From assembly GCA_003971905.1 (NCBI GenBank), contig RSEE01000164.1, positions 18,411 through 82,410 of the forward strand: a stretch of DNA of 64,000 nt. Direction: 5' to 3'. The notes beneath the pieces are model-generated. The model did no database searches, had not been told where the DNA came from, and was given only the letters and a program-made list of their open reading frames with translations. The translations under genes were made by a program, and so were the position numbers. Source of the DNA: Moniliella sp. 'wahieum'. Lineage: Eukaryota; Basidiomycota; Moniliellomycetes; Moniliellales; Moniliellaceae. Below are positions 4,983-35,540 of this stretch, in pieces (position 1 is the stretch's first letter; every line of letters starts with the position of its first letter).

Positions 4983-5065
4983 GCTCAGCCCTGGCATCGA
5001 GTGCTTCAGCTTGATTGAACGGGGATATTTCCTGTGCTATGCTTGTCCTGTACTTTTTATCATTC

Positions 5066-6066: not shown

Positions 6067-6091
6067 GAAGCTTGAAGCTTGAAGCTTGAAG
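6067..6091. repeat. 7-bp tandem tract, unit GAAGCTT
   Basis: Three and a half perfect GAAGCTT units; contains the palindrome AAGCTT. The same unit recurs at 27798-27825. Confidence 0.9.
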
Positions 6092-6444
6092 AAAGCAACG
6101 GAGAGATAGCAGCTGTTTTTTCATTTCAATCTCGAGAAGAGACGGCCAAGGGTCCCGGTCCTCTCAAGGTACTTGGAGGGTTAAGCTTAAGCTAGCTTTA
6201 AGCCGGTTATTAAACGTTAAGTACTCACTGTGTACTGAGTTCAGTATTGAATATTGAGTCTCAGTACAGAGTTACTGTGATGCATGATGTTACACATTGA
6301 CGCAAAAATAATGGATCATCGATCAATATGACCAATGGCGTGCTCACATGTCACTCATACGGGAGCACTGTAGCATCGCTGATGCGCTAATCTTGTTCGA
6401 TGTAGGGAAATGAATCGGATAAACGTTTAAACGTTAGACGCTAG

Positions 6445-6473
6445 ATCATCGATCATGCATCATGCATCATGCA
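6445..6473. repeat. 7-bp tandem tract, units ATCATCG/ATCATGC
   Basis: One ATCATCG followed by three ATCATGC in strict 7-bp register; the unit changes but the phase is kept. Confidence 0.9.
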
Positions 6474-7017
6474 CAGTGTCGTGTCAGATCAGACTGAGAA
6501 TCAGAGTACTGACTGACAGGGTACCTGATCGAGTCCCCTGAAGGCCTGGCTTGAGCACCTGAGGCCTGAGCCTTGAGTATTCGCATGTCACAGTGACGTG
6601 TCGCATCATGCATCCTCGAATCATTTTCATCCGCGAATACCATCGACACCAAGCTCTTCAAGATCAATATTCATGGGTATATTGGGCAATTAACAATTGG
6701 AGATGGGTGAACATGGACGTACTTAACAAGGAGGTCGGTGTATTCAGCGCAGTGTCTCTTTGTCCCAGCCGTAAGCGCGTACGCGCACAAGCTCTGTAAA
6801 TGATAATAAGGCGCAATTTAACCTAAAAGCCCTAAGGCTTAAGGGCCTAAGGCCAACCAACAGAGGGGGGGGTATGTATACCACAGGACCGTGTTGTTTT
6901 CAGCCTGGCTCAGGCCTTCCTCAGGTACCGGAGAGGAACGGCTGCCACGTGGCTGCAAGTGGATAAGATACGGGCCCAAGTAAGTAACAAGATTTCTTGG
7001 TCTGTGCGTGGATGCAG

Positions 7018-7044
7018 CGATAGTCGATAGTCGATAGTCGATAG
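7018..7044. repeat. 7-bp tandem tract, unit CGATAGT
   Basis: Three CGATAGT units plus CGATAG, all perfect. Confidence 0.9.
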
Positions 7045-7094
7045 CACAACCAGTGTGGCTTCTGGCTCAGCGATAGGGAACGGTGAGTAGCCTC

Positions 7095-7136
7095 ATCATG
7101 CAACATTCATCATGCATCATGCGTCATGCATCATGC
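7095..7136. repeat. 7-bp tandem tract, unit ATCATGC with variants
   Basis: Six consecutive 7-bp units: ATCATGC, AACATTC, ATCATGC, ATCATGC, GTCATGC, ATCATGC. Substituted units stay exactly in phase. Confidence 0.9.
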
Positions 7137-7221
7137 ACGTCATGTGGGATCTGAGACGCAGGACAGCAATGTGTCACAGGCTCACCGCTCACTGAGACGC
7201 GTGACATGTAACCAAGTGACG

Positions 7222-7242
7222 GCCATGCATCATGCATCATGC
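7222..7242. repeat. 7-bp tandem tract, unit ATCATGC
   Basis: GCCATGC followed by two ATCATGC units. Confidence 0.85.
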
Positions 7243-8301
7243 ACTCTCCTTCTATGGCTCCATGGAGCATAGGGAACCCTGAGGCTCAAGTCGGAAATCA
7301 TCAACGTTCAACAGCACCATGTCAAGTTCGTTCCACCGGAATTGTTTTGCCACCTGGTCATCCGGCCATTGCATGACGACACGCGGGTCCTATATACGCC
7401 ACCAAAAGACGGTCAACAAAAGAGATAATGGAGTAACTCTGGCAAACCTTTACCGAAGACGATCTGAAGAGTCATTTTACGGAGGGAGTGTGGTTCATCG
7501 ATTCATCGCTCGAACCGGCTAAACCACGCTCAATCTTTGAATCCATGGCGCGCCACACATCCTATGGAAGTGGGTGACGGGATAGAACCATAGGGACCCG
7601 AGCTGTTGGCGACTTCACTAGGTCCCCTAATTTTGGCCTTGCACGAGCAAAAATGCAGCACATGCACGCCGAATGAGCAACCCCGGCCTGCTAAGCGCAG
7701 CGATTCTTTGTACATGCTATGATTTTTTATTGCATAGACAACGAAAATTTGATCGGGCGCAATGCTTTGTTTTGGGAGACGAGGAACGAGATGCGATCGA
7801 GATAGGCAAGAGAAAGCAAAGAACAGAAGAGACAATGCTCGTAAGATTGAAGGCAAATGCAGTCGTACTCAGCCGGTGCCGCGTAAGTCGTGCCGCCTAC
7901 GCAGCACAGCTTCATGAGCAACACGACCGAGAGTTGGGAGGCAAAAAGCGATAATGCAAGCCGAGACGAGGGGGAAGACCCACACCGAAGAGCAAGGAGC
8001 CACAGCGGTGGGGCCAAGACGAAAAGAAGAAACAATACAGTTGCGGACATCAAAATAAGCGTACAAGGCCAAGACCGCAGGCATAACAGAGGGTTTGGCA
8101 AGAATAGTGCCTCTGCTGTTACAGGCCGATGGAAAGGAACCGTGCTCGACAAAGAAAACTCGGTGAACACGGTAGAAAAGAACAATCCGTGGTTGATGAG
8201 AGATGAGAGATGAGATCCTCGATGAAGGGAAATGGAAATGACGAGCAGGCCAAACTGACCCTGACGGGCTCAGCCTGAGCCATGTTCAACCTGATCCATC
8301 A

Positions 8302-11152
8302 TCAACGGCTCAGTCGAGGTGTTGGTGGGTGTGGAAAGGAGGGAGGTGGACAGGGACGGAGTGGCAGTCCATTCTCGGCTACTCGTTTCCGCCGACCTGA
8401 ATTCCAGCAAAAGCGCTCGACAAGATCACTGAGGCTCAACGCACCGGTCGAGGCTAGCTTGGTGGCCGTGGCAGGACTAGGGGTAGGCGTAGTCGTGCGG
8501 GTCGTCGAGGTAGAGGCGGGATCGGAGGTGTTCGTGTCCGACGAACCGTCAACATCTGGAAGCGAGGCTGCTAACACGGGGGCCGGGGTAGGAGCCGCGA
8601 CGGCCGCAGCACAGGGGGTAGGGACCGCCAAAGGCCTGTCGCCCGTCTCGGACTGGGTGGTCGGGGTGGCCGAAACGGTAGTCATACTGTCGGGCGAACT
8701 GGTCCGCGAACTTGTCCTACCGCGCGAGGGGAACATAGACTTTCCCAATGGTGGCATACCCAGCCCCAGCCCAAGTGGATCGGGCGCCGTAGACCAAGGG
8801 ACCCGAGGCAGACTTGCTCCCATTTCACAGGGTGAAGTGTCCCGCGAAGAGAGGGAAGAGGTAAAGGAGTTGAAGCCGTTGAGCGAGAGGAGGCTATGCG
8901 ACGGAGAGGCCGGTCCGACGACGGGCGAAGGGGACTCTCCTTCGCTGCTCTCTCCCGAAAGCATCGGGGTCGAGTCAGGTGACCCACTTCCGTCATGTAA
9001 CATGAGAGTAACGGTAGCGGCTAGAGCCGGGGGCGAGGTGTGAATAGGGGGTGGAATGGGATCTTTGAGGCGAGACTGGCCCCCAACAGTTGCCTAGGCA
9101 CACGCACCTCAGACGAGGAGGTTGTGGGCAAGTTCGTTGAGATGGGTGGGCATGGTGCAGGAGCGGAGAGGGAGGCAGATGGCAGAATATCCGGAACAGA
9201 CATGGAAGTCTTGTGATTCCAGACAACTGAGGACTGCATGCCAGGAGAGAGTCAATGATCCGTATGGACAATAGCATACATTTGAAAGAGGAAACGTACC
9301 ACAGGCTTGCTAAAGCTTGAGTGCCGGGAACCCCAGCTGCGAACACTGTTGAATGAGGTGGGGATACTTTCCTTTTTGCCCCTAGCTTGCCAGGAGGAGC
9401 ATCAACATCGGACCCCGACGGTGGAGACGAAGTCGGTACCGGGAGGGTACGCGGTTGAGTAGAGGCAGGGGCGGGAACAAGCATTGAGAGGGTATCCGAA
9501 GGACCCCGGGTTGAAGTGGGAGATATAGCCGGAGAGCTAGATGTAGGGAGGGGTGGCTCTGCAGCAGGGAAAAGTAATCGCCCACTTCGGGAGGGGAAGG
9601 GCTTGAAGTCTTGGTGGTAGTTCTTAGCGCATCGCCCAAATCGTACCTTGCACCCAGATGGCAGGCGAACTTGTCCCTTCCGAAATGCTGGACTAGCAGT
9701 GGTGCGGGTGGGCAGAGCTGAAAGGCGTGGGGCTGTAGCTGTGCTAGACCAAACAGCCTCAGCACGTTCCGCGGCTATTGCCGCCCTCTCTGCAGCGGTA
9801 AGACGGTGGGGGGGGGGAGATAGCCGGGAGCCGAGGGTGGGGGCGCACGTTTGCGGAAGTCAAGTTGATAGTTCTGCCCATTGTTGTTATCCCAAAACTC
9901 TTGGTCCCCTGTGTTGTATCGCAAGCAGAGCGACATGGTCTTCGTGTCCGAGTTGGTTTGACTGGCAGGCCAGTCAAGCAGCTCATTGAGACGGATGGAA
10001 AAGGTGAACCGGTCAGCTTGACCATTCTTGATCGTCTCTTGGTACGTTCCCCCCACTTCGTTGACGGTGACCCAGTTGTCTGTTGTGAATCGGACAGCAA
10101 CCCATTTTTCATATGAGAGATTCTTGACTTGGGCAGTACCCTTTATGCTTCGTAGATCGTCCGCGAGGACAATACGCTCAAGGAACACAGGTCGGTCGGC
10201 AGAAAGATGAGCCGACGAAGGGAAGTTGGGCAAACGGAGCAGGAGACCGTTTGCCCAAGCAGGCGGCACAGTGAGCGAACGCAGTTTGTTGGCCAACGCA
10301 CGCCCACCACCATCGCGCAAGGGGTCCCCACTGCCTTGGGGCCCCCACGGACGGTTACCCAATCGAGCAGAAGGAAGCATGGCAAAGTAGGGATAGGCCA
10401 CACCAGCTTCGGTCTCAGTCTCGGTTTCGGTCTCGGTGTGCTCAGGGCTTGCCGTAGCGCTTACTGCCGAGGGCCGAGAACGATGCCGGAAGACTTTCAC
10501 CTGTTCCAAGTCGTGAAAGTGCACCGCTTTCACAGCTGGGCTGGATGGCATACTCTTGGTATAGCTCTCGGGGTGAGCGGGGCACGAAAATCGGCCGCCG
10601 AAGCCCCCAGCACGAATGGAGGGATGTGCGCTTGCCGGGCGCCACTTGAGCGATGGCTTGACCACTTCGCCTGACTTTTGCGGATCGTAGTTCCAACGCC
10701 CGCAACTGGTTCACCATCCCGGTTCCAAGAGGAGACACCTTCAGCTGGGGGGAGGTTGTTGATGTCAAGCTGGAGAGCGCCAGAAGCGTCTCCCGGCGCA
10801 GTGGCCGCCTTGAGAGCAAGTACTTTGCGAGATGCGGCGTGGAGGGGGCCAGCGACGGTGTCATCAGGACTGGCAGTGCCACTGGTGGTAGGGAAGGTGA
10901 CCGTGTTGGAACGAACACGGGTAATACTTGTGTTGGGAACAAAAGCACTAGCGTGGCCGGAATGGTGGCCATGAACGCGTCGCGGCAGCAAGGGAGTGAA
11001 GCTGGAAGGCATGGAAGGCGTGCGAGGAGAGGCGGATGGGGGCAAGGGAGGGGGTGGCAAGGGCGCATGCTGCGGACGATCCAGATGGTGGCTTGACGGC
11101 CGAAGGGGGCGCTCGAAGCGGTGATGCTGCTTGCAACAGGGCCGATATCCAT
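8302..11152 (-). CDS. Glycogen-targeting PP1 regulatory subunit (CBM21; Gac1/Pig-like)
   Basis: Predicted to bring protein phosphatase 1 to glycogen and so promote glycogen synthase dephosphorylation. The Ser/Pro-rich N-terminus (possible start ATG 11152, MDIGPVASSI) leads to an RVxF-like PP1 docking site, KAVHF, followed by LEQVKVFRHRSRPSAV (about 10490-10540). The CBM21 domain spans about 9845-10190: VFLERIVLADD, IKGTAQVKNLSYEKWVAVRF, TTDNWVTVNEVGGTYQE, CLRYNTGDQEFWDNNNGQNY. A long Ser/Thr/Pro-rich tail ends with SLSDLVERFCWNSGRRKR and a stop at 8302. An intron at 9234-9299 (GTACGT donor, GCAG acceptor) and a possible second short one near 9090-9110 interrupt the tail. Frame changes occur near 9770, 10640 and 10950-11150. 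Start and N-terminus are uncertain because the 5' part runs into a GC-rich, low-complexity region. Confidence 0.82.
9234..9299 (-). other. Intron in CBM21 protein gene
   Basis: 66-bp intron: GTACGT donor read down from 9299, TTGAC-like branch region, GCAG acceptor at 9234. Confidence 0.6.
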
Positions 11153-11379
11153 GACAGAAGAATGTGCCGAGGATGGGGCAGAAGAAGAAGAAGAAGATGG
11201 AGGGGGGAGAGGTGGGGGGGGGGCGCGGGGAGGCGGACGATGGGAGGCAAGCCGTGCGCAGCTTGTCAGCGGTTTTATTGGCCACAGAGAGGGCTGGAAG
11301 ATATGCGTTGCTAGGAGCACCCAGACGGCAGGGCTGTCTGGCAAATTGCTGGGGGGGGGGAGGCACGGCACCAGTGTGG

Positions 11380-11635
11380 GTGGGGTAGGGTGCAGCCAAG
11401 CGACCCTGCCTATTGCGTACCCGCTCTGGGGCATCAGCCGGGTGTTCCGCGGGACGGTGCGCGCTGTACGTAGTGCGCACGCATGTTCGGTGGCCAGCTG
11501 CCAGGTGCTAGCCGCCATTTGCCAGTGGCTGCAAGGCACCCAGCCGCAGCAGGCACCAGCGCAGCAGCGGGCGAGGATGTCTTGCTGTGCAGGCCGACCG
11601 CCACCGGTGTACGTGTACACAGCGGCTAGCTAATA
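11380..11635 (-). promoter_or_regulatory. GC-rich promoter island upstream of CBM21 gene
   Basis: Dense GC, CpG, CAG and CTG sequence with many GCAGC/GCCAGC words, ending abruptly at a GCTAGCTAATAG edge where AT-richer DNA begins. Similar-looking blocks sit at the 5' side of the genes starting near 36.3, 45.6 and 57.7 kb. Part of it may be 5' leader. Confidence 0.4.
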
Positions 11636-11943
11636 GTGACTTACTATCTTCACTGGTCAGTACTCAGTGACTCGTGACGAATAATGACGACTGGCGCTAG
11701 TGACATGGCCAGTGGAGCTAGTGGTTAGTGATTTTAGGGACTGCGACATGTCACTCTAGGAAGTGCTGAGCCGCAGGGGTTCTTCGACTCAGAGTACTCG
11801 GTCTGAGTTACTCTGGCCACAGGCCCCGGACTCTCAATTTCTCAAGCGCACTCTTCAGGGCCTCAGAAGGAGGCCCCAATATACTCACGCTTGAACGTTC
11901 TTCCACATTCAAGACTGAACTCATTTGCACTCAACGTCTCAAC

Positions 11944-11971
11944 GTACTCAGTACTCAGTACTCAGTGAGTA
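11944..11971. repeat. 7-bp tandem tract, unit GTACTCA
   Basis: Three GTACTCA units, then GTGAGTA in phase. Confidence 0.88.
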
Positions 11972-12760
11972 CTCCGTCCTGAGCCTCAGTACTCGTATCG
12001 CAGTCACGAAGACGAGACTCGGTACTCCTACTCCGGGCTCAAAAGTACCCAACATACGCTCAAGGAACGTTCAACGTTCAACCCCGCATGCGCCTTCAAG
12101 CCGTGGGAAATGGGATGGATACACGTTGCATGCCCCAGCGCTTAGCGAGTACCAGCCCTTCAAGCGACGCAACACTCGGCTGACATTAATGGCTGGCGCC
12201 GACATGTGCTGTGATATGCGGTACTCCAAGCTTCATACGCGCATAGGCTTCACAATGGCACATGTCACCGACTACGGCGTGGGGCCGCCTTCGGCTGCGT
12301 TCAAATTCCTGATTCCGATCTCAGATGTCTGGACTGCACTCTGGCCCCAGCTGGTGGCACTGCGCTGGTGCCAGGTATGCATGTGGCCACAGAGGGCAGG
12401 GGACCCGTCCCAAACCCAAGGCGAAACACCAAGGGTCTGGAGTCTGGGGTCTGGGGACATGGGTGTCCGGGGTGGTCGTTGTGGTAGCTTGTGTGGTCTG
12501 CCGTCTGCCGCGGACGCTCGGGGCCGGCAGCCCGAAGGCTTAAACGCTTCGAGCTTCGGGACACAGCACCGCACCCTGAGGCCACTGGTCGCTGCTCACC
12601 GATCACCGGTCACCAGCCTCAGCCGGCGCCTCAGCTCAGCACTCCGCTCAGCAGCCCAGCACTCAAGGCGCTCAAGCTCAATGCTCCATATCGATATTCA
12701 ATGTTGGTACTTAGTGTACTTGGTTTTCCTACTTCGACAAACTAGTCACCGGTAGGTACG

Positions 12761-12795
12761 GTCATCCGGTCATCGATCATCGATCATCGATCATC
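12761..12795. repeat. 7-bp tandem tract, unit GATCATC
   Basis: GTCATCC, GGTCATC, then three GATCATC units, all in 7-bp register. Confidence 0.88.
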
Positions 12796-15700
12796 GAACA
12801 GGCCACAGGGTAGCTCTCTCATCGATGCTGCCTCTCAGGCTCATCGATTAGATCTTATAAGATTGGCGTCGAGTACACACTGAGGATCGAGGACTGTGTC
12901 TCAGTACCCTTGTCCTCCATATATCGATGGCGCAGCCAGGGGCACCGGCACCCGATCATCAATGAAATGTCAAATTCAAGCATTAATAGATTGATTAATT
13001 GATTACTGGTCTAAACGTGATCCTGTACAGCCAGCATCATGGTATTTTGGGCAGCGAGCAAAGTAGGGGCAGAAGTGGTGGAACCGGGCCGCCATGCACA
13101 GGTATACCATCGTATGAAAGCGATATATGGTGTAGAGTTTCGGTCACAGTGTGTTCAAAAGTCATGATTATCTCGACGAGTTGCTCAGATCTTCCCCTTG
13201 AGATCTGGCATTGGCATTGGACCAAAAGTCGTCTTCTTTTGCTCCTCCCCCACACGCGCCCTTCCCACGATCAGCCTATAGTCGGGATAATCGATGGCCT
13301 CTTCGCACACAACCGTCCCATATACCACACCAGTGCTCCAAGCATTATGTGTTTAACGTTTACTGTGTGGCCTGCTTCCTATATGGTCTTATATCTCTGT
13401 TGCCACCAGCCACCCAGCTCATCAATTTGTGGGGGGGAAGGATTGTGGGGTCCAGAAGCTGTGTGTGGTCCGAACTCCACGACAAGGGGCACACGATAGT
13501 ACACAAGTGAGCCACATGTGAGCGCAATCCTGTGGAAAATGCGTAATAATCGCGTAATCTCTGGGCGACACCTTGCTATCATTGAATCATCCTGGTTCGC
13601 GATATTGGGCAGCCAACAATGCTTGTGAGGGGTCCACGGTACACCCTGTGTGTGGTACTCCCATTCCCGCCTTCCCTCGGAATATGCATTCCACACATGC
13701 CAAGCTCGCCTATGTTGCACGTTGCATGTCAAGATCAAGCAACAAAAGAGGTCGACTGCTGAGGCCAACACCCACAGTGTCTGGTCGGGAGCAGGTGGGA
13801 GTGGCTCTGACATGCTGGCCAAGCTATAAGCACTAGGCTTAGCGCCAAGCGCTAATGGCTAACGCTTTCGGCCTGGGCCAAGGCCTGCCAGAAGAAGGAC
13901 TATTCTAAGACCAATCAAAGACCACCGCTCACCGCGCTCACCGGTCACCGGTCACCGTGTACTTTTTCGGATCGGCATGGGATATGGATCACATAGATCA
14001 TCGATCACACGTATCCGTTTTGCCTTCCATTAGCTTTTCTGGCAAAGGTCTCTTAAGTTCTGAAATCGGATTGTGCCAGGTTGGGCCAGTGTTGAATGTA
14101 CGTAGGACGTTGAACGTTGACACGTTCTTAACGTTCAATGAGTCTGGTCCAGTAAAGTCAGCCAATAAATGTTGCGCCATAGAAGACGGTACGCGTTAAG
14201 GGGCTTGTAACCGCACGCTACCGCACGTTGGCTACACGGAATACCCGGATCAGCCTCGCGTTCAGATCTCGGCAACATGTGAGCGCTGCGTCCTACTGCG
14301 CCTCAGGCCCTCCTCAGGCCTGAGCCTCACAGGCCTCAGCGACTGAAAGCTGAATCGCTGTGCCTGCGGCCATAATGTGTGGTGGTCGATGGTCGGTGAT
14401 CGATGAACGTGATGAACGTCTGAACGTTCTGAACGTTGAACTTCAACTATATGAACTGTTGAACGTTGCACGTTATCTGTGACATGTGATACGTGACAGG
14501 TGACATGCATGTGACAGGTGAGATACCTGTCACATGCACTCAGGCGTAGCGTGGCTGCGGAGTTTGTGACCATCTCGGTTCCATGGTGCATGATGTGCGT
14601 GATGTATGATAGACTGCATTATATAGTGAGGAGGCGAAATATCTTGCCCCGAATCTGGTAGGCCCTGCCCTCCTTTTTGCTGTAGTCTCATGAATTTCAT
14701 GTTCTTTCGGCCATCACCTCGTAACTCCCGATTGGGATTACAGCTAGCCCTCTCTGGTTCCACCCCTGATCTGATCCCGACCCGATAGCATATGATAGTT
14801 GAGCTAACATATACGTGCCCCTGTGGCCAATAATATAGTACGAGACAGGGAAGAAGTTGTATGAGATTTGATTCCCACTTGAACCATTTTCCAAATCTTT
14901 TTTCCTACTACGAGTAGCAGTCTATTTATGGCCCCCCTAGCCCTTCTGGCTATCGTGGCCAGCGAATAAATGCAAGAGAAATCGCCACAGATATAGCGAC
15001 ACTCCTCTTCACTATAGCTTGAATCCTCAAGTCAGCATCTGATTTGAAAGGACACACGAAGCGAGGACTCCGGAGTCAAGCGGGAGTAACAATGCGAAAA
15101 TGACAGAAGAGAGTCAAAAGATCGTTCGCTTTTGATTGCAATCTCAACGCGCGATGAGATGGCTCATCAAATGGTCGCATGTCTTTACAGCCGAAGCTTG
15201 GGACTCCTCGATTCGTTAGTAGTGGCTTTTGTAAGGCTGAATGGCCGCGACCACATACGTTAAAAGCAATTATCGTTCATACATGATGCTCATTTTGGAA
15301 ATGGTTCATCGCGTCCATGCCCTAGCCACGTCCAGAGTGGCGGTGGGAGAGAGCTGAGAGCTGATGAAGAGGTCGTCACTTTTGTGTGTAGGGGTGTATA
15401 TAAACACTTTTGGACGGTCAGCGAGAGTCACGCATGGCATGTCCCCGGCTTCAGATTCAGTAACGAAACCAATCGGGTATAGAGAGGAAAAGAGACCCAC
15501 TATTATAGATTGGGTGTGGTTTCCGGCGCGAAGCCCCTGCTCAGGCTGCTCAGGCTGAGCGCTGATCAGCAGAGTCTTCGGCGGCGGAGCCACGTGCGCA
15601 TCCCCATCAGGTAAAACCAGATGAAAGGGTTCAGGAACTCGGAGGGAATGCTGCTGCTTGCCTTACCGTTACCACTCTCAACGCGGGACTATGCGGATAG

Positions 15701-16960: not shown

Positions 16961-17772
16961 AATACACTTCATGCATAGACACATGCAGCATCTCATCTTC
17001 CTTGCGTCACAGCGCTCAGCCGCTCATCGCTGTTGGTCCGCACCACAGGCATAAAGCACACGCCTCATTCATGAGGCCTGAGGGAGCTATCATGTTGAGG
17101 CGAACCGCATGACTTACTGCCAAGCAAATGAATATAGCTCCTCGCACATCCCATATGTCTCTATCGCACTCAGCGGACGTGCGCGGGGCCACGGAGGTTC
17201 ATTTGTATTACTAACAATTCGTGCTATGAGGGAAGCATTTTCTGCACGCCATAAAGGATGTCATCATCGATCATGCATTCCCCCCCGTGTCTATCAGATA
17301 TTGTTTGTCACGGGGCGCCCCCCCCAGGGGGCTCGTCCGGGTTTATAGGGTACAATCCCTTCGGAGACGGTACGTCGCAAAGATTCCGGATGCGTGGTGG
17401 CCTAGGCCATCCGACTTGGACTTGGTGGGGGGGGGGGGTCGACTATTGCCGGGGGGAAGCATGGCCACTCTGGCCACCGTACTTGATTTACCCAACCATC
17501 ATCACACTTGGCTGTACTTCGGAGCGCGCTCTACTGTGCATGTGCAGAGAAGGCGGGCCTTAGCTTGGCTCGGACCATCTCGGATCCAACGCAGCCCGTA
17601 ACTATAGGATACGAGAGAGCACTGGCCAAGAAACAGAGCAAAACGGCTATTCACACTGCAGGAAGCACACGAGCCCAAGTCAAAACTTGGTATGAACGCA
17701 TATGGGGACGAGCGCGTGAAGAGGGGTAAAAGAGATGGAATGGATGTGAAATGAGATGAGATATGAGAAATT

Positions 17773-17797
17773 GAGATGAGATGAGATGAGATGAGAT
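17773..17797. repeat. Pentamer microsatellite GAGAT
   Basis: Five GAGAT units, with related imperfect GAGAT/GATGA sequence for some 40 bp upstream. Confidence 0.85.
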
Positions 17798-19525: not shown

Positions 19526-20491
19526 GATTGGATGGTGGTGGAGAGCTGAAGAGTGCGAAGAAGACTTGAAGATGGACAATTGGAAACAATAAGGCTGAGG
19601 CACTGCTGCTGCTTATAGTTCCCTTTTGGGGAAGCTCACGCACTAAAGTCTCAACTGTCGAGAGGGAGGATGTCGAAATGAAGGGGAGCTGAGCTCAGCG
19701 CTCCGGCTGAGTGGCACCCTGATCTGGTGCTCAGCTTGCTTAGTGCTGGTTGTGGCCCGGCAATGTCAGCCAAGCGTGTCAGCTGACACACTAAGGACTG
19801 AAGCTTGAAGCTCAGCCATGTCAACGTGTCCGCCGCACTCACCAAGGTGGGGGCGAGATCTCAGTCCGAGGCCTGAGCCTCAGGCCCCTCAGTGTGCTCA
19901 GCTGAGCCAACAGAGTGCGCTGAAGCTGAACAAATTCATTAAGCATTGAACGTTGAATATTGATGCGTGATTCAAGCGATTAATGATGAGATCGATGATC
20001 GATGATCGATGATCAATGAAATTAATGATCGACTATTCCAGTTTCCAAATGCAATGTTCAATGCTCGAACACCGATCACCGATTGAATCACCGGTCATCG
20101 AGGTCATCCCTCTGCCACCTGCAATCGCAATTGATGCTCGCGACCATAACGAGTGTGATTCACACATCGCCACGTCTTCAAAAAGGCATCGATGCCGGTG
20201 CAGTGTTACACGGGACATCATACCATTCTTTGCAAAATATGAAGACAGGTAAGGAAACGCTCTCCGCCTACCGGGACCGCTCATCCCGTGTGCGCTACTC
20301 GCTCGAGCCAACCAAACCAGGAGCTCAATGGTTTCGCCCGCAGGTCAGGGGCGTGGAAGACGAAACAGGAAGTAGTTATTACGAAAAGCTGGCGTGTCAG
20401 CGTAATTTGCAATCACCCCAACAAGGGACTCTCCCCCATTCGCCTCCAAACTCCGGAGACGTATTCTAAGCTATACTGCATCCATAGTATT
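19526..20491. other. Intergenic, palindrome-rich
   Basis: Upstream of the Sip5-like gene. Clustered CTCAG/CTGAG palindromes (19660-19930) are followed by a 7-bp GATCGAT tract. No gene seen. Confidence 0.45.
19990..20017. repeat. 7-bp tandem tract, unit GATCGAT
   Basis: Three GATCGAT units then GATCAAT; each unit contains the palindrome ATCGAT across the junction. Confidence 0.9.
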
Positions 20492-21360: not shown

Positions 21361-23222
21361 TGTGGGTCAAGTTGCTGTGCCCAACCACACGGCGACTATC
21401 AGCATAATGCGCGTGGATATGGTATGACCGAGGATGATCATATATAAACTGAGAAACATATGGGGTGATCGAGAGATGAGAGCTTCATACCAGACTCTTC
21501 AGCGAGACGTGCCAACAGTGCTCTCAAGCATCTTATACCGTTGGTGCGGTTGGTACTAGTGTTGATGCAACGTTGATGTGTGTCTTCTCATCATATGATC
21601 ATATCTGTTGGGGTTAAGATATAGAATGAAAAACGGCTCTTCAATCGGTGTATCCTTGGTGCTTTTTTGGCGCGCTCTTCTCGCATTCCCCTTGCCTATT
21701 CTCTTTTTCTCATGGTGTTCCGCAGATGTTATCGTCTCCTCTCTCGTGTTACCATCTTTCGGCACTCAATCTTGCCATCACTTGTATACAAGTCCTTCTG
21801 AGAATGAGGTCCATCTCCATCCCTATAGTCCTCCGTAGTCTTCTCCGAAAGCTCTTCGCCCCCATCATCTCTCAATAATCCACACATCTGGCCATCCGCG
21901 CCTCGTTGAGGTTCTTGAGCATAGCACCTGCCCATTCCCCTCTCCCACATCTCCCTATAGCGCTGGTGCTTCGTCTTTTAAACTCTCGCATGCCGGCGTG
22001 TACCAGTCAAGGAGGGTATAACAAAAGTGATAATAAGGTAGTCGTTGTGGGCCTCATTGTAGAAGCATCAGCGCGCGTGTGAGGCGCACCTACTAAATAG
22101 CCGCTGCATCCTCCCAGTGGAAGGGTTACATGCGCTCATGAGCATGCCAAAGGGACCGTCCTTTCAATCGTCCCGTCCTCATTTTCCCAACAAGGTCCGT
22201 TGAAACCATACTAGGCACACAGAGAATGAAAACGTCAGTAGTATTGACTAGCATAGCGACGACCATCCCCCTCCCAATTGTGTAAGGGTAATGCCATCCA
22301 AAATGTTTGTCTTGTCGGCTGTTATTGGCGCACCCTTTGTCCGGAAAAGCCATGCCCGGCGGCAATTACCATGACGCACACTGTAATGATGTCCCACTCA
22401 AACAAAGTACCCACACTGGACCACGGCCTTTTCGAATCCGGTCCCGCTCCTCTTCGAGCCTGGCCGCTCACCGTGACCGTCCTGACGCTGTAAGATTCGT
22501 ACTACGGCCGACCGTCAAGCTTATTCAAGCTTCACGTATACATTTGAACGGGTCTACTCTTACGTGTTGCTTCCCTGGTATTTGACATTGTTACCACGTT
22601 GCGCTTTTCCCCTACCCGTAATAAAAACTCCAGGCTCGTCCACAGACGTTCGAAAGAAATCGAGGTTATCATCTCCTCACCACCAGCTTTCGTTACTCAA
22701 AACTTTTTTAGCGTCCTTTACTATACCTGAGTCACACCAGTTCCTATTCCACCTCACCATCATTGGTTGTCCAAACGGTCCTGGCCCCACCATTCGACGC
22801 CTGGCTCTACCCCCAGTCGTGTTTCCTCTTCTTCTCGTCTACAAAAACCACAGCTAATATATAATCAAAAAGCAATGGGTGTCCCGGATGGAGGACAAGA
22901 GAAGCTTGAGTGTCGGGATCAGATCCACTTGATCACCGTTTGATCACCAAGTTGACTGGTCCCTGATTTGTTCTAGACCCGGTTTTCCCCTTCGATTATG
23001 CTCCCCTTCTTCCTCTGTGTGACTTGCCCGCATGTTCTCTTCTTCTTCGAAATATATACATCTTCGCCCTCTTTCCACTCGATGAATATGATCCTGACCC
23101 TTTCTCCCATCTCTATCTCCTGTTAGATTTGATCCCACTCGGCTTCCTGGCTTTTTAGTCCACCCACGCATCCCATCTTGTTGGACATCTCTCTCCGTCC
23201 TACCTCACTCTCCTCCCGCCCC
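21361..23222. other. Intergenic interval
   Basis: No gene I can support. Short open frames at 21608-21950 and 22278-22857 have no recognisable domain. CTC-rich stretches near 22980-23220 may be promoter or leader of the next gene. Confidence 0.4.
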
Positions 23223-26801: not shown

Positions 26802-27014
26802 ATGACGCGTGACAGCAAGGCTTGGTATAAGACAGAAGAAGGAAGGAAAACAGGTATAGGGTCAAGACAGGGTTGATGGTACGTTGATGTGAGCCAGGTG
26901 AAACCAATGTGGTCCGCACGCCACTAGCCACTCTGCACCGTGTGGACCAGAGACCGGGGATAGAATATTGATGGTTTGCCATCATGCATCAGTCGACTAG
27001 CCAGTATCACTAAT

Positions 27015-27049
27015 AGTCACTAGTCACTAGTCACTAGTCACTAGTCACT
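27015..27049. repeat. 7-bp tandem tract, unit AGTCACT
   Basis: Five perfect AGTCACT units; the junctions form the palindrome ACTAGT. The longest perfect 7-bp tract in the window. Confidence 0.95.
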
Positions 27050-27797
27050 GTGACCAGGACCACTCCCTGTCACATGTAGTGCACTACTCGGGTGGCCCTG
27101 ATACCTGAGACCGGACTGAGAGCTCAAGCTTTCAGGCTGAGCGGGCGCGCGGTCCCTGGTCTATCTGCTCGCGCTCCGCCGGCTGAGGGCGCTGAGGTCT
27201 GGCGCTCAGTCTGAGCGTTCATCGGCTCATCAACGTCATCAACCCATCCATGCATCATGCACATCATGGATCACCGATCATCGCGCTATCGCTCCCCGTT
27301 AAAACACGTTGTAACAAAATACGAACGTAAAACTAAACTAAACGTAAGGCGTAACATGCGTAGCGCGTAACGCGTAAATGTGGAAACGCCATACATTCGT
27401 ATTCATATCTAAGAGCTCAAATGCCACAGAAGTCACGAAGTCACCGGTCACATGTCGTAGGCATGCTGGCAGCTGGACGCTGGACGCTGGACACTGGACG
27501 GGCTGGGCGAGAGCTTGACTAGTTGACTCGCGGTTGGTTAAACTCAGTTATTGGATCCTGGGTACTGCATTGCTAGGTCTGTGGGCGGTCGGGATATCTG
27601 CGTGTCAATGGCCAAGACCAATCGATGACCAGCACGGTGGCTGATGGCGCTGAGTGGCTGAGCGCTGAAGCTCTGGGTACCGATGTACTGATGCATGATG
27701 ACCAATGATTAATGATCTGGATAAATGTACAGAGTAAAACCGGTGCCCCAACCGGGCTGCTCCCAAGCTGAGCCAGCAGATGCAGAATGCCTCTTCC

Positions 27798-27825
27798 AGC
27801 TTGAAGCTTGAAGCTTGAAGCCTGA
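27798..27825. repeat. 7-bp tandem tract, unit AGCTTGA
   Basis: Three AGCTTGA units then AGCCTGA; same repeat word as at 6067-6091 in another phase. Confidence 0.9.
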
Positions 27826-28916: not shown

Positions 28917-28990
28917 TGGTAACGCGCGGTACGGGTCTTAGACCTGGTAACGCGCGGTAAGGGTCTTAGACCTGGTAACGCCGATGGGTA
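28917..28990. repeat. 28-bp tandem repeat
   Basis: Two nearly perfect 28-bp units starting TGGTAACGCGCGGTA and ending GGTCTTAGACC (28917-28944, 28945-28972), then a third, diverged partial unit. Confidence 0.85.
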
Positions 28991-29499
28991 TAACCGGCGG
29001 TAAGGTCTCAGATTCAATATTCAATGGCCTCAAGGAAGAATTGCGTGGAGCGTAGAGCAAGTCATGTGGTGGTCATGGCACAGGAGAGAGAGAAGGATAG
29101 GAAGACTGGGAAGCAGCGAGAGAGCCTGGGTGCCCGCTTCCCAAAATGCCGCAGCAGAGGCCTGCCTGAGGCCAGTGAATGATGGCAAAGGCGTCTCTAC
29201 GTCACGCGTCACGCGCGTCTGCGTCAGGCGTCATCACGTCATCGATCATCCGCATGCCATGCACGTCACGCGTCACAACGATTAATTACATGTGACAGTG
29301 ATGTGTACCGTTTGACGTGGTGTGGCGTTTGGTGCGTTGGGGATACGGGTAATTTGAAGACAAACTTTTATCTCAGAGCTTTTAGATACCAAGACAATAA
29401 TTAATAATAGTGGATCATCGATCACCCATCATGCATCACGTTTCGTCCATGGCCTTACGGCCTTACCGGTTTGTGGCTCGCAGCCTTAGGTCTTAGATC

Positions 29500-29527
29500 T
29501 TACCGGTTACCGGTTACCGGTTACCCA
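29500..29527. repeat. 7-bp tandem tract, unit TTACCGG
   Basis: Three TTACCGG units then TTACCCA; ACCGGT palindromes at the junctions. Confidence 0.9.
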
Positions 29528-29961
29528 TTTCTGGTTTCCGGAGTATATCCAACGCTGTTGGTACTGTCACAGTCAACGTCAACGCGTCAAACGGTTGCGT
29601 TGAACAGGAAGAGGCACCTGAAGGCACTAGCATGGAATACTGATCTATGTACTGGATATACCCTTTTAGCGGTCTGCTTGAGCGCTTAGCCTGAGCGCCC
29701 TGAGTGCATTCTTCTGGGCATACTCCTTCCTCTGGTTTGTACTTCGGGGTACAGTATAGTTGTCGGAGAGGCGAGCAAGGCAGGGGTCATAATGGTGGTG
29801 ATGCAATCAGAGGGAGGCCGACGCCCTGAGGCGCAAACAAGGAGGGATGGACCAGGCGAAATCATGTTCGTCGCGCGAGGACACCCGACTGGGGTAGCAG
29901 CTGTGCGTTCCGCGGCGGTCACGGTTCCCAGTTAGGCTATATAGTTAAGCCGGCTACGTCA

Positions 29962-29999
29962 AAACGTTAAACGTTAACAAAGCAGGTTCAACGTTCAAC
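29962..29999. repeat. 7-bp tandem pairs, AAACGTT and GTTCAAC
   Basis: Two AAACGTT units (29962-29975) and two GTTCAAC units (29986-29999), both carrying or forming AACGTT. Confidence 0.8.
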
Positions 30000-30086
30000 G
30001 TGTTCGTCGTTTAACCTTCAGCACCTTATTGTAGAGCTCGCTGAACGCGCTGAGCGCGCTGAGCTGATCGATAAACTTTAGTCTTT

Positions 30087-30107
30087 GGTTACCGGTTAGC
30101 GGTTAGC
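30087..30107. repeat. 7-bp tandem tract, unit GGTTAGC
   Basis: GGTTACC, GGTTAGC, GGTTAGC in register. Confidence 0.85.
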
Positions 30108-30183
30108 GGAGTTACCGCTGTTAGTGCCATGTTATGCATGGTGTCGGTTACCGTTTAATTACCCCTTAGCGCTTACCGTAAGC

Positions 30184-30204
30184 GCTTACCGCTTACCGCT
30201 TACC
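30184..30204. repeat. 7-bp tandem tract, unit GCTTACC
   Basis: Three perfect GCTTACC units, with another GCTTACC at 30171-30177 and one inverted GTAAGC between. Confidence 0.9.
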
Positions 30205-31171
30205 TATCACTTCTCGATAACAAACGGGAACGCAGGTGTGTACCAAAGACGTACACAACTGTGTGGCACAACTGTGACAGCACTCTCACTTAAGCCACCA
30301 GCAGCGCTCCAGCGTGGAACGGTGGCTGCGGTGGCGGCAGTGGTGGCGGTGGCCCAGCACAACAGGCTGGGGCGAAGCCCAGACCGGGCCGTAGCCCGAT
30401 GGTCTCCTAGTAAACGCTAGTAACTAGTAACCGTGACTGGTCGGTCACTCGGTCAGCTCGGTCATCTCGGTCAGATCTCCGAAGTCAGATCTCAGACTGA
30501 GAGGTCAGAGATCCCAGAACGTGAAGTACAGAGGCCTCAGAGGCCTGAGAGGCCTGAGGCCGTTGATGTTAAGACTTCGAGGTGTGACATGTGAGGCGCG
30601 TGACGCGTGAATCTGAGAGGGCCTGAGGCTCAGCCGTCGCGCTCAGGTCGCGCTCAGAGCCTCAAGAGGAGCGCTGGCCATTAAATAGTTCGTCGAGCCC
30701 CTTCTCTGTGGGACAAAAAAATGAAAGGCTAGTGCATAGTGGATGGCATGATGCATGATTGCTGCCTTCCAGAGGTTTCTAGGATGTGGGCTGGGCTGGC
30801 GCGCTGCTGCGTGACGCGTGACGTTGAGACCCGACCGACCTCGGGCCGAGAGGTCCCTTCCGCCCCAGACATGTCGCACCTGTTTTTGTTTCCTCCGAGG
30901 CCCGAAGGGCTCGAAAAGGGACCCTCGCGTGCCTTGTCTTAGATCACTGTCCCGCTTACAGCCCGGCCGACCGGCTCCCCTTGGCGTGCCTGCACCCAAC
31001 CGCGCCAGGCCACACCGCACTGCCACACCGTAACAACATCTGACGCGCTTTACGCTTCCACCAGCTAAATGATCCCATACACCACATGTCTCGCATGCGA
31101 CACATATCAAGTTGCTCAATTTTTAGCGCATACTAGTTAGTTAGGTGTGACGTCACGCATCACGTTTGACG

Positions 31172-31229
31172 CGGTAACCGGTAACAGGTAACCGTAAGCG
31201 CGCTAAGCGTTAAGCGTTAAACGTTAATC
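31172..31229. repeat. 7-bp tandem tract with drifting unit (CGGTAAC to GTTAATC)
   Basis: CGGTAAC, CGGTAAC, AGGTAAC (31172-31192), then after a short break GCTAAGC, GTTAAGC, GTTAAAC, GTTAATC (31202-31229). The unit changes by one or two bases each step while the 7-bp phase holds. Confidence 0.88.
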
Positions 31230-32562
31230 GTTTTATTAAGCAGTTGTCGTCATATGGCCCTTAGTCGTGAATCCGGTAATCGGCCTTCCTTGTCTCCTTC
31301 ATAGCCATGTCTACTCTCTTCTGACAACGAAACCTTTGCCTGTTTGAGTACTTGGTTCTACTCGTCTTCCCCCAAATCTTACAGCAGCGTTAGTATACTG
31401 TGAAGAGGCTCAGTACTCGCATTTGATTAATCAGTGCTGTAGGTTCAACGTTCAACTGAACGTGCAGGTTCAAAACCTGTTCAACCCGTCCACCGTGCTC
31501 CACATTACGAGATACCTGGCCTTGTGAAGCAGGCTTGAGTTAAAGGAATTAGCATGACAGGAAACAATTGTCGCTGAGGGTACTCTCGCTTTTCGCTTCC
31601 GAACCGCCGATGTCTATTATAGCACGATCGGATACGGCTGAGCGTACTGGTTAACGTCCCGGGCGGACCCCAGCGTAGGCGTCAGCGCGGGGGGTTGAGA
31701 TGCATGCGATCCCTGAAGGGTCGACTCAAGGGATGTTCGAGCGTGGGCTTATTGATGGATCTGAGCAGGGGAAGGGACAAGACGAGGCTTCTCGGCGCAT
31801 TATAATAGCAAACACGGCTATTGGTGTGGCGAGGCTGCGTAAACACTACCGGCCGGTTGGGCAGTACAGGAACGTGTGTCTGCAGCGCGTTTTGTACTCT
31901 CGGGGACGAGAAAAGGCCCAGCGTGGGTCAACGCTGGCGCAAACGTTTTGAACTGGTCCGCCAACCGGATTGAAGTTGATTATAAAAGCTTTAATTGGAC
32001 GGAAAGATGCTGGAACACTGAGCGCGACTGGCAATTTGGAGCTGTGGCAGGTGGCAAGGTGATAAGTGAAAAGGCCTAGAGGGATGAGGCAAGTATACAA
32101 GAATATGAGTTGCCTGTACCGTATGCACTGACGAAGATGGAAAGACCATCAATAGGGCGAAGACACGCCAATTGATTGTGGGGGAAAGGCACGACCCATC
32201 AGTTGCTTACAGACGGTGACGGGGCCACACACATATAATACGCAACACCCGATGTGTGTATGACCCTGTTCTAGATCTTCTTTGATCTCTTTGTGTATAC
32301 GTCTCTCTCACCACGCATCGTTTACCGTTCGATTGCTTTTTCCTACCTCTGGTATGTGAGAGGCACCGTTCCATGGAGCCTGAATGGATACTATAGATAT
32401 CCAAGCAATCCCCCCTTCACACGGGGGGGTAAAGAGGAAACGGAGAGACCGTACCAGATCGAGGAACAAAAAGGAAACAACGGATTTGCAGCGTTGGGTC
32501 CACGCTATGGACGAAACGTGATGCTGGGTATGAATAACATCTCTATTCTGTGTAACCATATA

Positions 32563-33790
32563 ATTGACAGAACTTAAGGTTAGGACAAAGAAACGCTGTG
32601 CCCTATATAAGCCAACCGTTCATCCGGGCGTGTGCCGCTTGTTAGCACCAACCCGTTACGGTACCCCAGCACGTAAACCGATCCGTAGGCCCGGCGTCTC
32701 CTAGTAAAATAAACAGGCACAAACAGGCGACTGCCGTCGCCAACAAGATCCGTAAGTCTATGTCCGGTCTGACCATCGGACCTGTGTTTTTGACCGTTTC
32801 GCCTGTCAAGACTGGAGAAGCATGAGGTGTCATGGTTTGGCTGATCCTCGCTTCCATTCCCAAATAAAGAGGGGGGGGGGGCAAAAAGAACCGCGGCACC
32901 GAGGATTCCCATGTGGTCCCCCCACCGTAGTACTGACTGGCGATACTGTGGTTAACTTCGCAGATCGGACGGGATGCGGTGCTTTACAGTTCTATGGCCG
33001 CGGATGCTCAAGGTGTTTGGAGAGGGGGGTATGGGGGGGGAGGGTGTATTGACGGGGGGATCCTGAGCGTCTCGCTTATTCCCTATTTCTTCCCACTTTG
33101 CACCATACTCTCTGCTCTTGCTTCTTTCCCCACGAACGATTGTTACAATCCCTTGACCTAGCCCCGATTCTGGTCTTCTTCGAATTGGCCCCGACTGTGA
33201 CAGACATAGGGCTTTAAATTGGATGGAATCAGCTAAAAGCCACGTAACATTTGACAGGCATAAGTAATGAACGACGGATCATTTCCACATTCATTAATGA
33301 GAGACTTTGTCAACCTTCTTCAATTCCAGTGCTCACACATCCATAATAGCCACTTGTTTTGTCATGACCAAAGGCGAAAGCCGGCTGCTATTGGTGTGAT
33401 CTGGGCTCTTGGTGCTCTTGTCGCATTCCGATTGGTACAACAATCGGGTGCCACTCATCCTCTCGGCCGTCCACACACGCATTTCCACCTCCTCGTGTAT
33501 CGCCTTTCGTTACACGAGAAAGTTTGGCCTCCTTCGTACTACCCAAGTCTCTCACGGTGCGGTTCATCTTCATTTCTGATCCTCGGAATCCTCCTGTGTT
33601 CCCATCATTCTATAATCCGTGTACCTGACATTCTCTCTCTCTCCTCTCGTCTTCTTTCTCCACAGCCGCTGTTCATTGAGTGGGTGTCCTGGATCGAACG
33701 AAGAAAAGCATTTGAAAGCCGCCTCTCGTCCCACACCTCCTTGTGCAACGTGCCAAATGTTTGGATTGGTTGCGGGTGCAGACCAAGTTG
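32563..33790 (-). repeat. Dispersed repeat, copy 3 (most diverged)
   Basis: Head ATTGACAGAACTTAAGGTT with following AAGAAACGCTG and AAGCCAACCGTTCATC matches copies 1 and 2. Near 33740 a CCCACACCTCCTTGTGCAAC block, followed by an AACGTGCCAAATG word and a TTGCGGGTGCAG word, aligns with 21164-21215 of copy 2. The middle is not clearly alignable by eye. No intact protein. Edges approximate. Confidence 0.45.
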
Positions 33791-34912
33791 TGTGCCCCCA
33801 CGATTCTTGTAGCCTTCATCATATAGATCTAGGAGAGTCGCGATTAAAACGGGTCAGATAACATTGGGGAGAGTTACATAGATACCAGCGAAGTGTGAGG
33901 TGTGTGTTCAGGATCATGGATTAGGCACATGCGTTCTTCGATGAAGCGATCGCTACTTCATGCATCCTTAAGTTTCTGGCGAGTCGAGGGGCGGTAACCA
34001 TTAGCCCACACGGGTTAGAAGCGATCCATTCGCTACTCTCGTCTCTCACGTACTAGTCACAACCGATAGTGAGGGTTGTGTGCGATGCCCTCACGCATAA
34101 GCTTTGGCTGCACTGGTTAAAAAGACGGGTACAAATTGGTCGTGTGTCGAAAAAAAGGGTAAAAGATCGAGTGAGGGAGACGAGGAGGGAGATTCAGCGC
34201 TCAGGCTTGAGTGGAGCTCCCAGGCGTTGGTTGATCGGTGGTGTTTGTCTTGGCTGAGCGTGAATTTTGCGCTGAATTTGCATGACTTTCTCGAGGGCCA
34301 GAGCGGGAAAGTATGGATACGGTGAGGTCTTGTTTGATGAGACATGGTCTCCGGATGGCCCTCTCGAGTGATGCAATCACACTCGGTGGTGACGGTTGTG
34401 GTCTAAGTGATACAACCAACAAAGCGCCTATAGAGAGGAACTCATCAGCAGTCAGTCACCACCAGGAGGGGCTATAGGGGCTATAGGCTGCGGAATACGG
34501 AAAACACAGAAGCGTAATAGTGGAAACAATGGAACTCTCCTCGGCCTGAGGGGAAAACTGGGACCTTTCCAAAACACGCGAGCAACCCGCGGGTGGCTCA
34601 ACATTGTTGAGTTGGGTTGTGGATCGACACAATCTGCAATGTCACAACATGTCACTGTGACGACCGACAGCCTGTGAAGCGCGTGATGCTTGAAGCTGTG
34701 TTGGTGCACGTTGATGCTGCTTGATGAGCTTGAGGCCTGAGGGGCCTGAGACTTGAATTAAGTCAAGGCTCTGTGGATGGGACGTGTACTGCGATCAATA
34801 CCTCATGCATCAGCGGCTCCCTACTAGGGGGTCGGAGACGAAGCAGTTTCCCTTTTTTGAAGCTTGCGACCTGAGATCTGCAGAGATGCATGGTGAAGAA
34901 GAGATGGTGAGT

Positions 34913-35109
34913 GTAACGGTGTGGCCTCCCGGGCGATGACAACCTCGCCCGACGGGGGGCACAAAGGGGAGCCAGCCTCTGGCTCGTCAGGCAAAGCGAC
35001 CAATCGTAATGTAACGGTGTGGCCTCCGGGCGATGACAACCTCGCCCGACGGGGGGGCACAAAGGGGAGCCAGCCCTCTGGCTCGTCAGGCAAGGGGACC
35101 AGTCGTAGG
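34913..35109. repeat. 98-bp tandem duplication
   Basis: Unit 1 is 34913-35010 and unit 2 is 35011-about 35109. Both start GTAACGGTGTGGCCTCC and include GGCGATGACAACCTCGCCCG and GGCTCGTCAGGCAA. The few differences are small indels in G and C runs. On the minus strand both units encode a similar Pro/Leu-rich peptide (LTSQRAGSPLCPP and related), in frames that differ because of the indels. Confidence 0.9.
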
Positions 35110-35505
35110 CCCGAAGCGCGCGAGCTTCGCACCAGAGAGACGTCCTCCCTACTGCCTTCCTAGCGATAGCGTTCCTAAGCTGAGTCCTGGAGAAGGCGGC
35201 GCTGAGGGTGGACGTAGGACAAGACGATTGGTCGCTTGCCTCCATGCATTCTTAGTACAGAGCGGGTCTTTATATAGGCAGGCAAAGGCCCGCAGGTTGT
35301 ACAATAGGCAAGCGGCTAACTGGGTCTGTTGGAGACCACAGCGGCTGATAGCTCCGTCGATCCGCACGCGGTACTATCGGCGATCGAAACCGATTAGAAG
35401 CCAAGAGCGAACGATAAGCAGCGGCGGCGCCAACGGAAATATTTCCGGTGGCTTGCTGCGCATCGCCCCGTGACAGTGAGATCAGAGAGTGTTCAGTTGA
35501 ACGTT

Positions 35506-35540
35506 GAGATCTGAGATCTGAGATCAGAGAGTTGAGATGT
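35506..35540. repeat. 7-bp tandem tract, unit GAGATCT with variants
   Basis: GAGATCT, GAGATCT, GAGATCA, GAGAGTT, GAGATGT: five units in perfect 7-bp phase; AGATCT palindrome in the unit. Confidence 0.9.

Follow-up and report, generated by a model that had tools for sequence, protein, structure and literature searches.

What fixes the length of a repeat unit while leaving its sequence free? The question is raised by a window of 64,000 nt from the fungus Moniliella sp. 'wahieum' (C164:18411-82410, reaching the contig end, in an assembly of 69.5 Mb and 223 contigs), in which short tandem tracts share a 7-bp period and differ in their units. We propose, as an explanation modestly favoured by the balance of the evidence, that these heptamer tracts are repair scars of breaks at a 7-bp target, NNTNANN, of the kind that a departing cut-and-paste transposon or a transposase-like enzyme would leave. 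The analysis drew on the window, on a 254-kb set that adds 19 sampled loci of 10 kb, and on a 291-kb set that also takes in contig C48's second copy of the region. Expected counts were obtained by order-3 Markov shuffling of blocks of 4 or 5 kb, with 4 to 20 shuffles per test.

The tracts themselves are well founded. Tandem Repeats Finder (TRF), run on the window at a score of at least 30, returned 137 rows, and its coordinates match those of the named heptamer tracts of the original prediction within 3 bases, examples being 6066-6091, 6452-6473, 7018-7044, 7094-7137, 11944-11966, 12770-12797, 19990-20019, 27014-27049, 29500-29525, 29962-29977, 30087-30109, 31172-31194, 31200-31232 and 35505-35538. 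The claim that heptamers dominate was borne out as well: the window holds 22 exact period-7 tracts of at least 17 bp, against a mean of 0.1 and a maximum of 1 in 20 order-3 Markov shuffles, while periods 1, 3, 6, 8 and 9 give 6, 6, 7, 4 and 8 exact tracts, and between 6 and 36 kb the identity at lag 7 (0.294) is the highest of lags 1-30, with the other lags at 0.25-0.275. Their uneven placement was likewise confirmed, in that 36-64 kb has no lag-7 excess (0.268) and that the 83 window loci of the TNA family described below fall 0 in 0-6 kb, 77 in 6-36 kb and 6 in 36-64 kb, with none between 8215 and 11655, where a CBM21 gene is located. In the 254-kb set, period 7 is again the commonest, its 60 tracts comprising 30 unit types; next come periods 6 (47), 9 (25), 3 (23) and 1 (19). 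Heptamers occur across the whole genome, as two 24-mer arrays had 317 and 802 match positions in the 69.5 Mb (overlaps inside arrays counted apart) and their reversed controls 0 each. The CCCTGTG unit had been listed under 6067..35540; the CCCTGTG/CCCAGTG array lies at 63926-64000, beyond that range, stops exactly at the end of C164, stands outside the TNA class and may be an assembly break.

The units are not mutually unrelated, as had been thought, since most of them consist of T-N-A followed by a 4-bp palindrome. A link between units and 6-bp palindromes had been suspected correctly: a 6-bp palindrome plus one base makes up the unit in 43 of the 60 period-7 tracts of the 254-kb set (expectation 14.6; maximum 24 over 300 shuffles of the letters), and all 43 palindromes, as read from the list, start with A and finish with T. 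The other 17 tracts include GATGAGA, GGTTAGC and GCTTACC, which are TNA-centred direct repeats, and the units CGATAGT, GCTGGAC, CAAACGC and CCCTGTG fit neither class. By eye, the top non-simple words among the 10-mers over-represented under an order-3 model are mostly TNA-palindrome-TNA or its rotations. Counting the flanks of 4-bp palindromes gave 109 TGA/TGA, 99 TCA/TCA, 30 TTA/TTA and 24 TAA/TAA pairs against 3.6, 3.4, 0.4 and 0.5 expected, or 262 same-N TNA pairs against 9.0, while the 15 other flank classes ranged from 7 to 38 observed and from 6.0 to 30.9 expected. Within these, ANT, CNG and GNC (9, 22 and 25 against 6.0, 21.8 and 27.2) stay near expectation, and ANG, GNA and TNG (37, 32 and 35 against 13.5, 14.7 and 18.4) are up about twofold, which we attribute to other frames of the same arrays. 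The core is 4 bp long in 261 cases against 7.8; cores of 6 bp (7 against 2.2) and 8 bp (3 against 0.9) are slightly raised, and those of 0, 2 and 10 bp are not enriched between TNA flanks. Fifteen of the 16 palindromic cores were seen at least three times between the same TGA or TCA flanks, AATT once. Taken together, the whole family comprises 316 loci in 291 kb, about one per kb, with at least one locus in 18 of the 19 sampled loci (155 in all); the centres ANT, GNC, CNG, TNT, ANA, TNG and CNA give 27, 50, 59, 24, 29, 65 and 59 loci, and the reversed sequence gives 27, which equals the ANT count by construction. What the counts show is the grammar of the words, with its flank rules and its TNA specificity.

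Isolated words of the family are 12-mers, TNAxy-YX-TNAxy, of which there are 54 oriented cases with unrelated flanks and 30 different choices of N, x and y. The modal lag-7 run length is 5, and exact run-5 tracts number 349 against 181.8 by chance, with 55 in the form with TNA and two palindromic (P) nucleotides (P2) and at most 7 for each of the other aNb pairs. Strong stems are not clearly preferred: the G+C share at positions x and y is 0.48 and 0.65 in 78 isolated 12-mers, and 0.52 and 0.60 in background TNAxy. Genome-wide, TGATG-CA-NN-TGATG, a left P2 with a second copy, occurs 516 times and its reversed control 11 times. The word TGATG-AC-NN-TGATG, meant as a control, occurs 94 times (reversed control 14); NN is GT in 43 of the 94, the predicted right-flank P2 form, and GA in 23, possibly coding GAT/GAC repeats. 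Several other derivations of the word were set aside, namely hairpin loops with arbitrary arms, since inverted non-palindromic 4-bp arms around a 3-nt spacer are unenriched (948 against 1023); a transposon remnant of 4 bp within a TNA target, given that the two bases past the second TNA repeat the core (modal run length 5); a 12-mer symmetric about XTNAx, a form found in just 6 of 61 run-5 tracts; and a telomerase-like origin, as contig C3, one of six contig starts examined, begins with CCCTAA repeats that the heptamer units do not match.

A single chain of events would account for these words. Insertion would duplicate seven bases, vwTNAxy, and excision would leave a flush hairpin on each flank; if the hairpin were opened two bases from its tip, the result would be a 4-nt 3' overhang that is self-palindromic, xyYX on the left and WVvw on the right. 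End joining that retained one overhang and trimmed the other would produce vwTNA-xyYX-TNAxy or vwTNA-WVvw-TNAxy, with 7 bp added on balance, and less often both overhangs, or neither, would be retained. Further events at the same TNA would build arrays in a 7-bp register, uniform when templated from one flank and mixed when templated from both: in a second event at a scar, the inner flank as template would give the same core, and the outer flank a different core in the same register, which would explain units that are substituted in phase. Such units, already described from the sequence, were upheld here, with 12 mixed arrays against 0.05 expected, of which 9, including that at 6444-6471, obey both flank rules, and with 10 words of two adjoining cores against 0.8, of which 4 obey both rules against 0.05. 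The flank rules also bear on the earlier suggestion of a templated synthesis reaction, in that the inserted bases are indeed templated, while hairpin-capped end joining fits better than a 7-nt template. From this pattern we infer a transposase-like enzyme, end joining, and array growth by repeat events rather than by slippage; once arrays exist, slippage may lengthen them. Ku, which end joining requires, is represented by matches at three places.

The forms that such joints would take were counted in the 291 kb, with P nucleotides gained (+) or bases lost (-) at the left and right ends of vwTNAxy given as (left, right), and with cases in which w is complementary to x excluded. The two main forms, (+2,-2) and (-2,+2), occur 72 and 81 times against 1.0 and 1.2. 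The forms (0,0), (+2,0) and (0,+2) occur 19, 9 and 10 times against 0.2, 0.0 and 0.2, (+1,+1) 7 times against 0.2, and (+2,-1) and (-1,+2) 14 and 15 times against an expectation of at most 1.2. The form (+2,+2) occurs twice against 0.0, as the 18-mers GTTGATG-CA-AC-GTTGATG (21561-21578) and, on the C48 copy, ACTCACA-TG-GT-ACTCACA. Break forms with a net four-base loss are at expectation in the 291 kb. Some cells share sequences and are not independent; the words of (+2,-2) and (-2,+2), for instance, reappear as (+3,-3) and (-3,+3).

Regarding the length of the duplicate, exact 7-bp direct repeats are TNA-centred in 9/58, 12/45, 13/61, 3/22 and 3/25 cases at lags 7-11, the share at lags 10 and 11 being weak (P 0.04 and 0.06), and in 0/50 at lag 6; the base rate among distant pairs is 3.6%. 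Coding sequence raises lags 6 and 9 as well, so that for these two the TNA share alone was used. Across all centres, 7-bp duplicates with ends (2,0), (0,2), (2,2) and (1,1) number 26, 26, 2 and 24, and 8-bp duplicates 3, 1, 0 and 3. We infer a duplicate of 7 bp rather than 5 bp, together with the hairpins and the overhang geometry, and chose 7 bp because of the dyad symmetry of NNTNANN and the whole-duplicate forms.

For comparison, the second copy inside the same assembly was used. C48:46001-82998 is colinear with positions 731-34165 of the window, with 88% identity over 30.4 kb aligned and several 1-kb stretches at 95-98%, and the pair reads as two haplotypes or subgenomes in one assembly with strongly rearranged intergenic DNA. 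A handful of allele pairs differ by the presence or absence of 7 bp. Among the sites listed of 97 merged, the extra copy is in the window in two clean pairs, TCTTA versus TCTTA-GA-TCTTA (29491) and GTTAA versus GTTAA-AC-GTTAA (29966), and on C48 in a third, GGTGA in the window (6706) versus GGTGA-CC-GGTGA; a fourth sets TCATG in the window (29073) against a 19-mer on C48. When bases were removed from 137 tracts of both copies, the best fit to the other copy lay at 7 bp in 7 tracts and at 14 bp in 2 (9/137 together). The allele evidence is therefore good in the few alignable sites and silent for most.

Several results weigh against repair scars of a transposon. In 291 kb plus six short loci, less than 1% of the genome, no responsible element stands above chance. 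Inverted ends accompany 23 pairs of TNA-centred 7-bp repeats there; 22 of these pairs lie inside arrays, and the sole other pair, a weak candidate that bounds a 1-kb stretch (L024:1277-2277) with the duplicate AGTAACT and the ends CCGCTCCTC/CCGTTCCTC, is at chance level, as 2.4 such pairs are expected from other centres; its end word occurs at 13 places in the data, with TNA-centred flanks at its own two alone. An exact-anchor search found no occupied site between the window and C48 copies; it was open to non-allelic positions too, and the matches inspected were array cross-matches or unrelated places. A profile search with the Pfam models MULE and DDE_Tnp_4 gave no match, nor did hAT (PF05699), KDZ and Plavaka, for which the control genomes were equally silent. 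So many family loci beside so few resident elements are odd. Among the joints, (+2,+1) and (+1,+2) are absent from the break-form counts, some longer-P cells such as (+3,-2), (+4,-4) and (-4,+4) exceed chance with 6, 5 and 3 cases, and TNA flanks with different N number 45 against 16.6. Duplicates of 5 bp (256, 275, 2 and 170 in a free-letter test, in the order of ends given above) and 6 bp (48, 54, 0 and 37) exceed those of 7 bp, which we attribute to the 12-mers containing such duplicates, and the main class of 153 isolated joints is also readable as a 5-bp duplicate TNAxy with P2. In addition, C48 is homologous to the window, so that shared scars are doubled in the 291-kb totals (238 loci without C48), and in the deletion test 86 of the 137 tracts had no good match, 19 were tied and 15 unchanged; removal of 6 bp gave the best fit in 5 tracts, and removal of 1, 3 or 5 bp in 3.

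Other element-like features were seen on the way. Thirteen large-insertion junctions inspected by eye showed a clear 7-bp TNA duplicate in none. A search for exact 9-bp inverted ends with duplicates of 2-10 bp exceeded chance by one pair each for duplicates of 8, 9 and 10 bp. The 8-bp pair, in L023, is CT-rich; the 9-bp pair, a candidate element with inverted ends and the duplicate GAATTGGCA, lies at L021 2627-3787. Allowing imperfect ends returned 8 pairs with 7-bp duplicates, none of them convincing.

Given the elusive element, one might dispense with it and assume that a host nuclease or a domesticated transposase makes staggered breaks at NNTNANN, with fill-in and hairpin or palindromic end processing giving the same words. 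We regard this as unlikely, though it would sit comfortably with 316 loci in 291 kb that come with neither an occupied site nor an element beyond chance, and the end-joining factor Ku is present; what is hard to obtain without an inserted element is a flush hairpin together with a 7-bp duplication at one break, and we know of no nuclease that makes staggered breaks of the NNTNANN kind. Distinctly less probable is a slip or snap-back of replication at short palindromes, in which a nascent 3' end ...YXTNA would fold over the TNA loop, copy two bases, restart and so add YXTNAxy, with slippage extending the arrays. Such folding would account for the 7-nt gain at a 5-mer, for both orientations and for copy-number changes of 7 and 14 bp, and a polymerase-contact idea is reported for bacterial 7-nt repeats (PMC4679880). 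However, pairing alone should permit ANT, CNG and GNC centres, whose counts stay close to expectation, and it would explain neither the whole 7-bp TNA duplicates at lags 8 and 9, which exceed the base rate, nor the 18-mer that has P2 left and right; nor are strong stems clearly preferred. The plain slippage on palindromes that the original prediction had offered leaves the T-N-A requirement, the isolated 12-mers, the flank-templated cores and the whole duplicates at lags 8 and 9 unexplained.

Ordinary microsatellite slippage with a chance bias to heptamers appears very improbable. Some arrays do differ by whole units between copies, and the CGATAGT and CCCTGTG arrays lie outside the TNA rule, but an unconstrained unit growing from an existing repeat is not what was found: TNA and palindrome rules hold, 12-mers stand isolated between unrelated flanks, and mixed arrays match both flanks. 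Hardly credible, finally, are selected binding-site arrays or an assembly artefact. The uneven placement (77/83 window loci in 6-36 kb) would agree with either, but within any one site the free letters (N, x and y) recur as copies or complements, unlike in a protein motif, so that the binding-site arrays put forward earlier are a poor fit, and some tracts are identical in two separately assembled copies (15/137 unchanged), with arrays on many contigs.

Repair scars of transposon-like breaks have relatives among known systems. The hAT transposon Ascot-1 of Ascobolus is said to leave excision footprints. For Ac/Ds in Candida albicans, footprints with deletions and P insertions of up to 3 nt at an 8-bp duplicate are described, and in Candida albicans and yeast such footprints are attributed to hairpin opening and end joining (PMC5873905). 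The likeness lies in the duplicate left behind, the short deletions, the short P nucleotides at the joint and the fungal host; by contrast, the duplicates there are 8 bp, here read as 7 bp with a TNA centre, and the palindromes there have at their centre the complement of the base next to the element (PMC5873905), here being even (flush, xyYX). Scars here also stand at about one per kb with only a weak candidate element, unlike in the Ac/Ds system. Of the hAT features looked for, P nucleotides and short deletions were thus found, and the 8-bp duplicate and complement-centred palindrome were not; because of the different duplicate length and palindrome centre, we do not class the pattern as hAT. 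Judging from the words alone, the even P palindromes would resemble the V(D)J coding joints of RAG, and Transib transposons, with flush hairpins and short P nucleotides. Transib and RAG have 5-bp duplicates with no TNA centre. Here tandem arrays are formed, and while the main class could be read as TNAxy with P2, the whole 7-bp TNA duplicates favour 7 bp; the free-letter counts do not tell the two lengths apart. Intergenic tandem heptamers are also known from cyanobacteria as short tandemly repeated repetitive (STRR) sequences. In Beggiatoaceae, tandem TAACTGA heptanucleotide repeats are spread through intergenic parts of the genome (PMC4679880); these bacterial repeats use one or few fixed units, unlike the free-letter grammar with a palindromic core seen here. 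For Dada transposons, PMC8869645 speaks of a 7-bp target site duplication and of insertion into multicopy RNA genes, so that the duplicate length is similar, whereas the scars here are spread through intergenic DNA.

A further step, possible in our opinion but one we would lean against for now, is that the intergenic DNA is shaped by a hitherto undescribed hairpin-forming cut-and-paste system with a 7-bp NNTNANN target and elements that leave almost on landing, whose V(D)J-like joints, in the tens of thousands, give rise to 7-bp arrays and new palindromes throughout the genome. Extrapolated genome-wide, the joints would number about 57,000 from the 19 sampled loci and about 75,000 from all 291 kb, a minority of them by chance. 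The searched open-licence literature, in the portions of text available, contains no report of this TNA-palindrome heptamer pattern. If repair scars are the right explanation, a puzzling class of microsatellites would become a readable record of break repair, giving the flank retained, the P count and the trimming with many natural replicates, and could thus provide a route to the responsible enzyme and a measure of hairpin opening in an unstudied fungus. In addition, tandem repeats and 6-bp palindromes could originate without slippage, and heptamer repeats of other genomes may hide the same grammar.

Table 1. Period-7 tracts and related words in the window, with their state on the C48 copy where it was compared.
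Position	Feature	Remark
6064..6091	TGA-AGCT array, core AGCT	shorter on C48
6444..6471	mixed array TCA-TCGA-TCA-TGCA-TCA	core 1 matches left flank GA, core 2 right flank TG
7018..7044	CGATAGT array	outside the TNA rule
7108..7135	TCA-TGCA units	one in-phase substituted unit
7299..7312	isolated 12-mer TCAAC-GT-TCAAC	best C48 fit after removing 7 bp
8195..8215	GATGAGA direct 7-bp repeats	TNA-centred, without palindrome; 0/0 form
11946..11966	TCA-GTAC array	one unit fewer on C48
12760..12795	TCA-TCGA array	GGTCATC duplicate ahead of array
13927..13956	TCA-CCGG array	one unit fewer on C48
14402..14417	GATGAAC-GT-GATGAAC	full 7-bp duplicate plus 2 P nucleotides
19994..20014	TGA-TCGA array	from TRF and family count
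21561..21578	18-mer GTTGATG-CA-AC-GTTGATG	7-bp duplicate entire at left and right, each side adding 2 P nucleotides
27015..27049	AGTCACT array	lies in a gap of the aligned C48 copy
27800..27820	TGA-AGCT array	differs on C48
28658..28671	12-mer TCATT-AA-TCATT	adjoins C48 insertion of about 230-240 bp (adjacency only, no source implied)
29491..29525	TCTTA-GA-TCTTA, then TTA-CCGG array	only one TCTTA on C48, where by eye the array is two CCGG units shorter
29966..29979	GTTAA-AC-GTTAA	one GTTAA on C48
30087..30107	GGTTAGC repeats	direct duplicate around a TNA centre, no palindrome
30184..30204	GCTTACC repeats	TNA-centred direct duplicate
31208..31229	GTTAAGC/GTTAAAC units in phase	from TRF and family count
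35496..35523	mixed array TGA-ACGT-TGA-GATC-TGA	from mixed-array search and family count

The genes of the window include an FKS1-type glucan synthase, a CBM21 protein, an MFS transporter and a Rad23-like protein; with the ribosomal DNA mentioned below and the CCCTAA start of C3, they indicate a fungus. The MFS gene and a UTP15-like gene (478-4982; UTP15 by eye) span several frames, which might reflect introns or base-level assembly errors. A 615-bp repeat at 5060-5674 is lacking at the same site on C48 and gave 44 matches from 40 scored of 838 genome-wide candidates; it was set aside as unrelated to the heptamers. Termini resembling long terminal repeats, TGTCACGGGG, lie at 17306 (+) and 35475 (-), with similar words in several sampled loci. 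A 5S rRNA gene is present on the minus strand at 32888-33005, inside the tract-rich block, and another near a telomere at L011 508-626. Eukaryotic ribosomal DNA was found on a contig other than C164; at L010 1-9198, contig C2 opens in ribosomal DNA, whose 28S gene gives way beyond about 4800 to coding-like DNA rich in GC, and 8784-9198 holds another piece of 28S.

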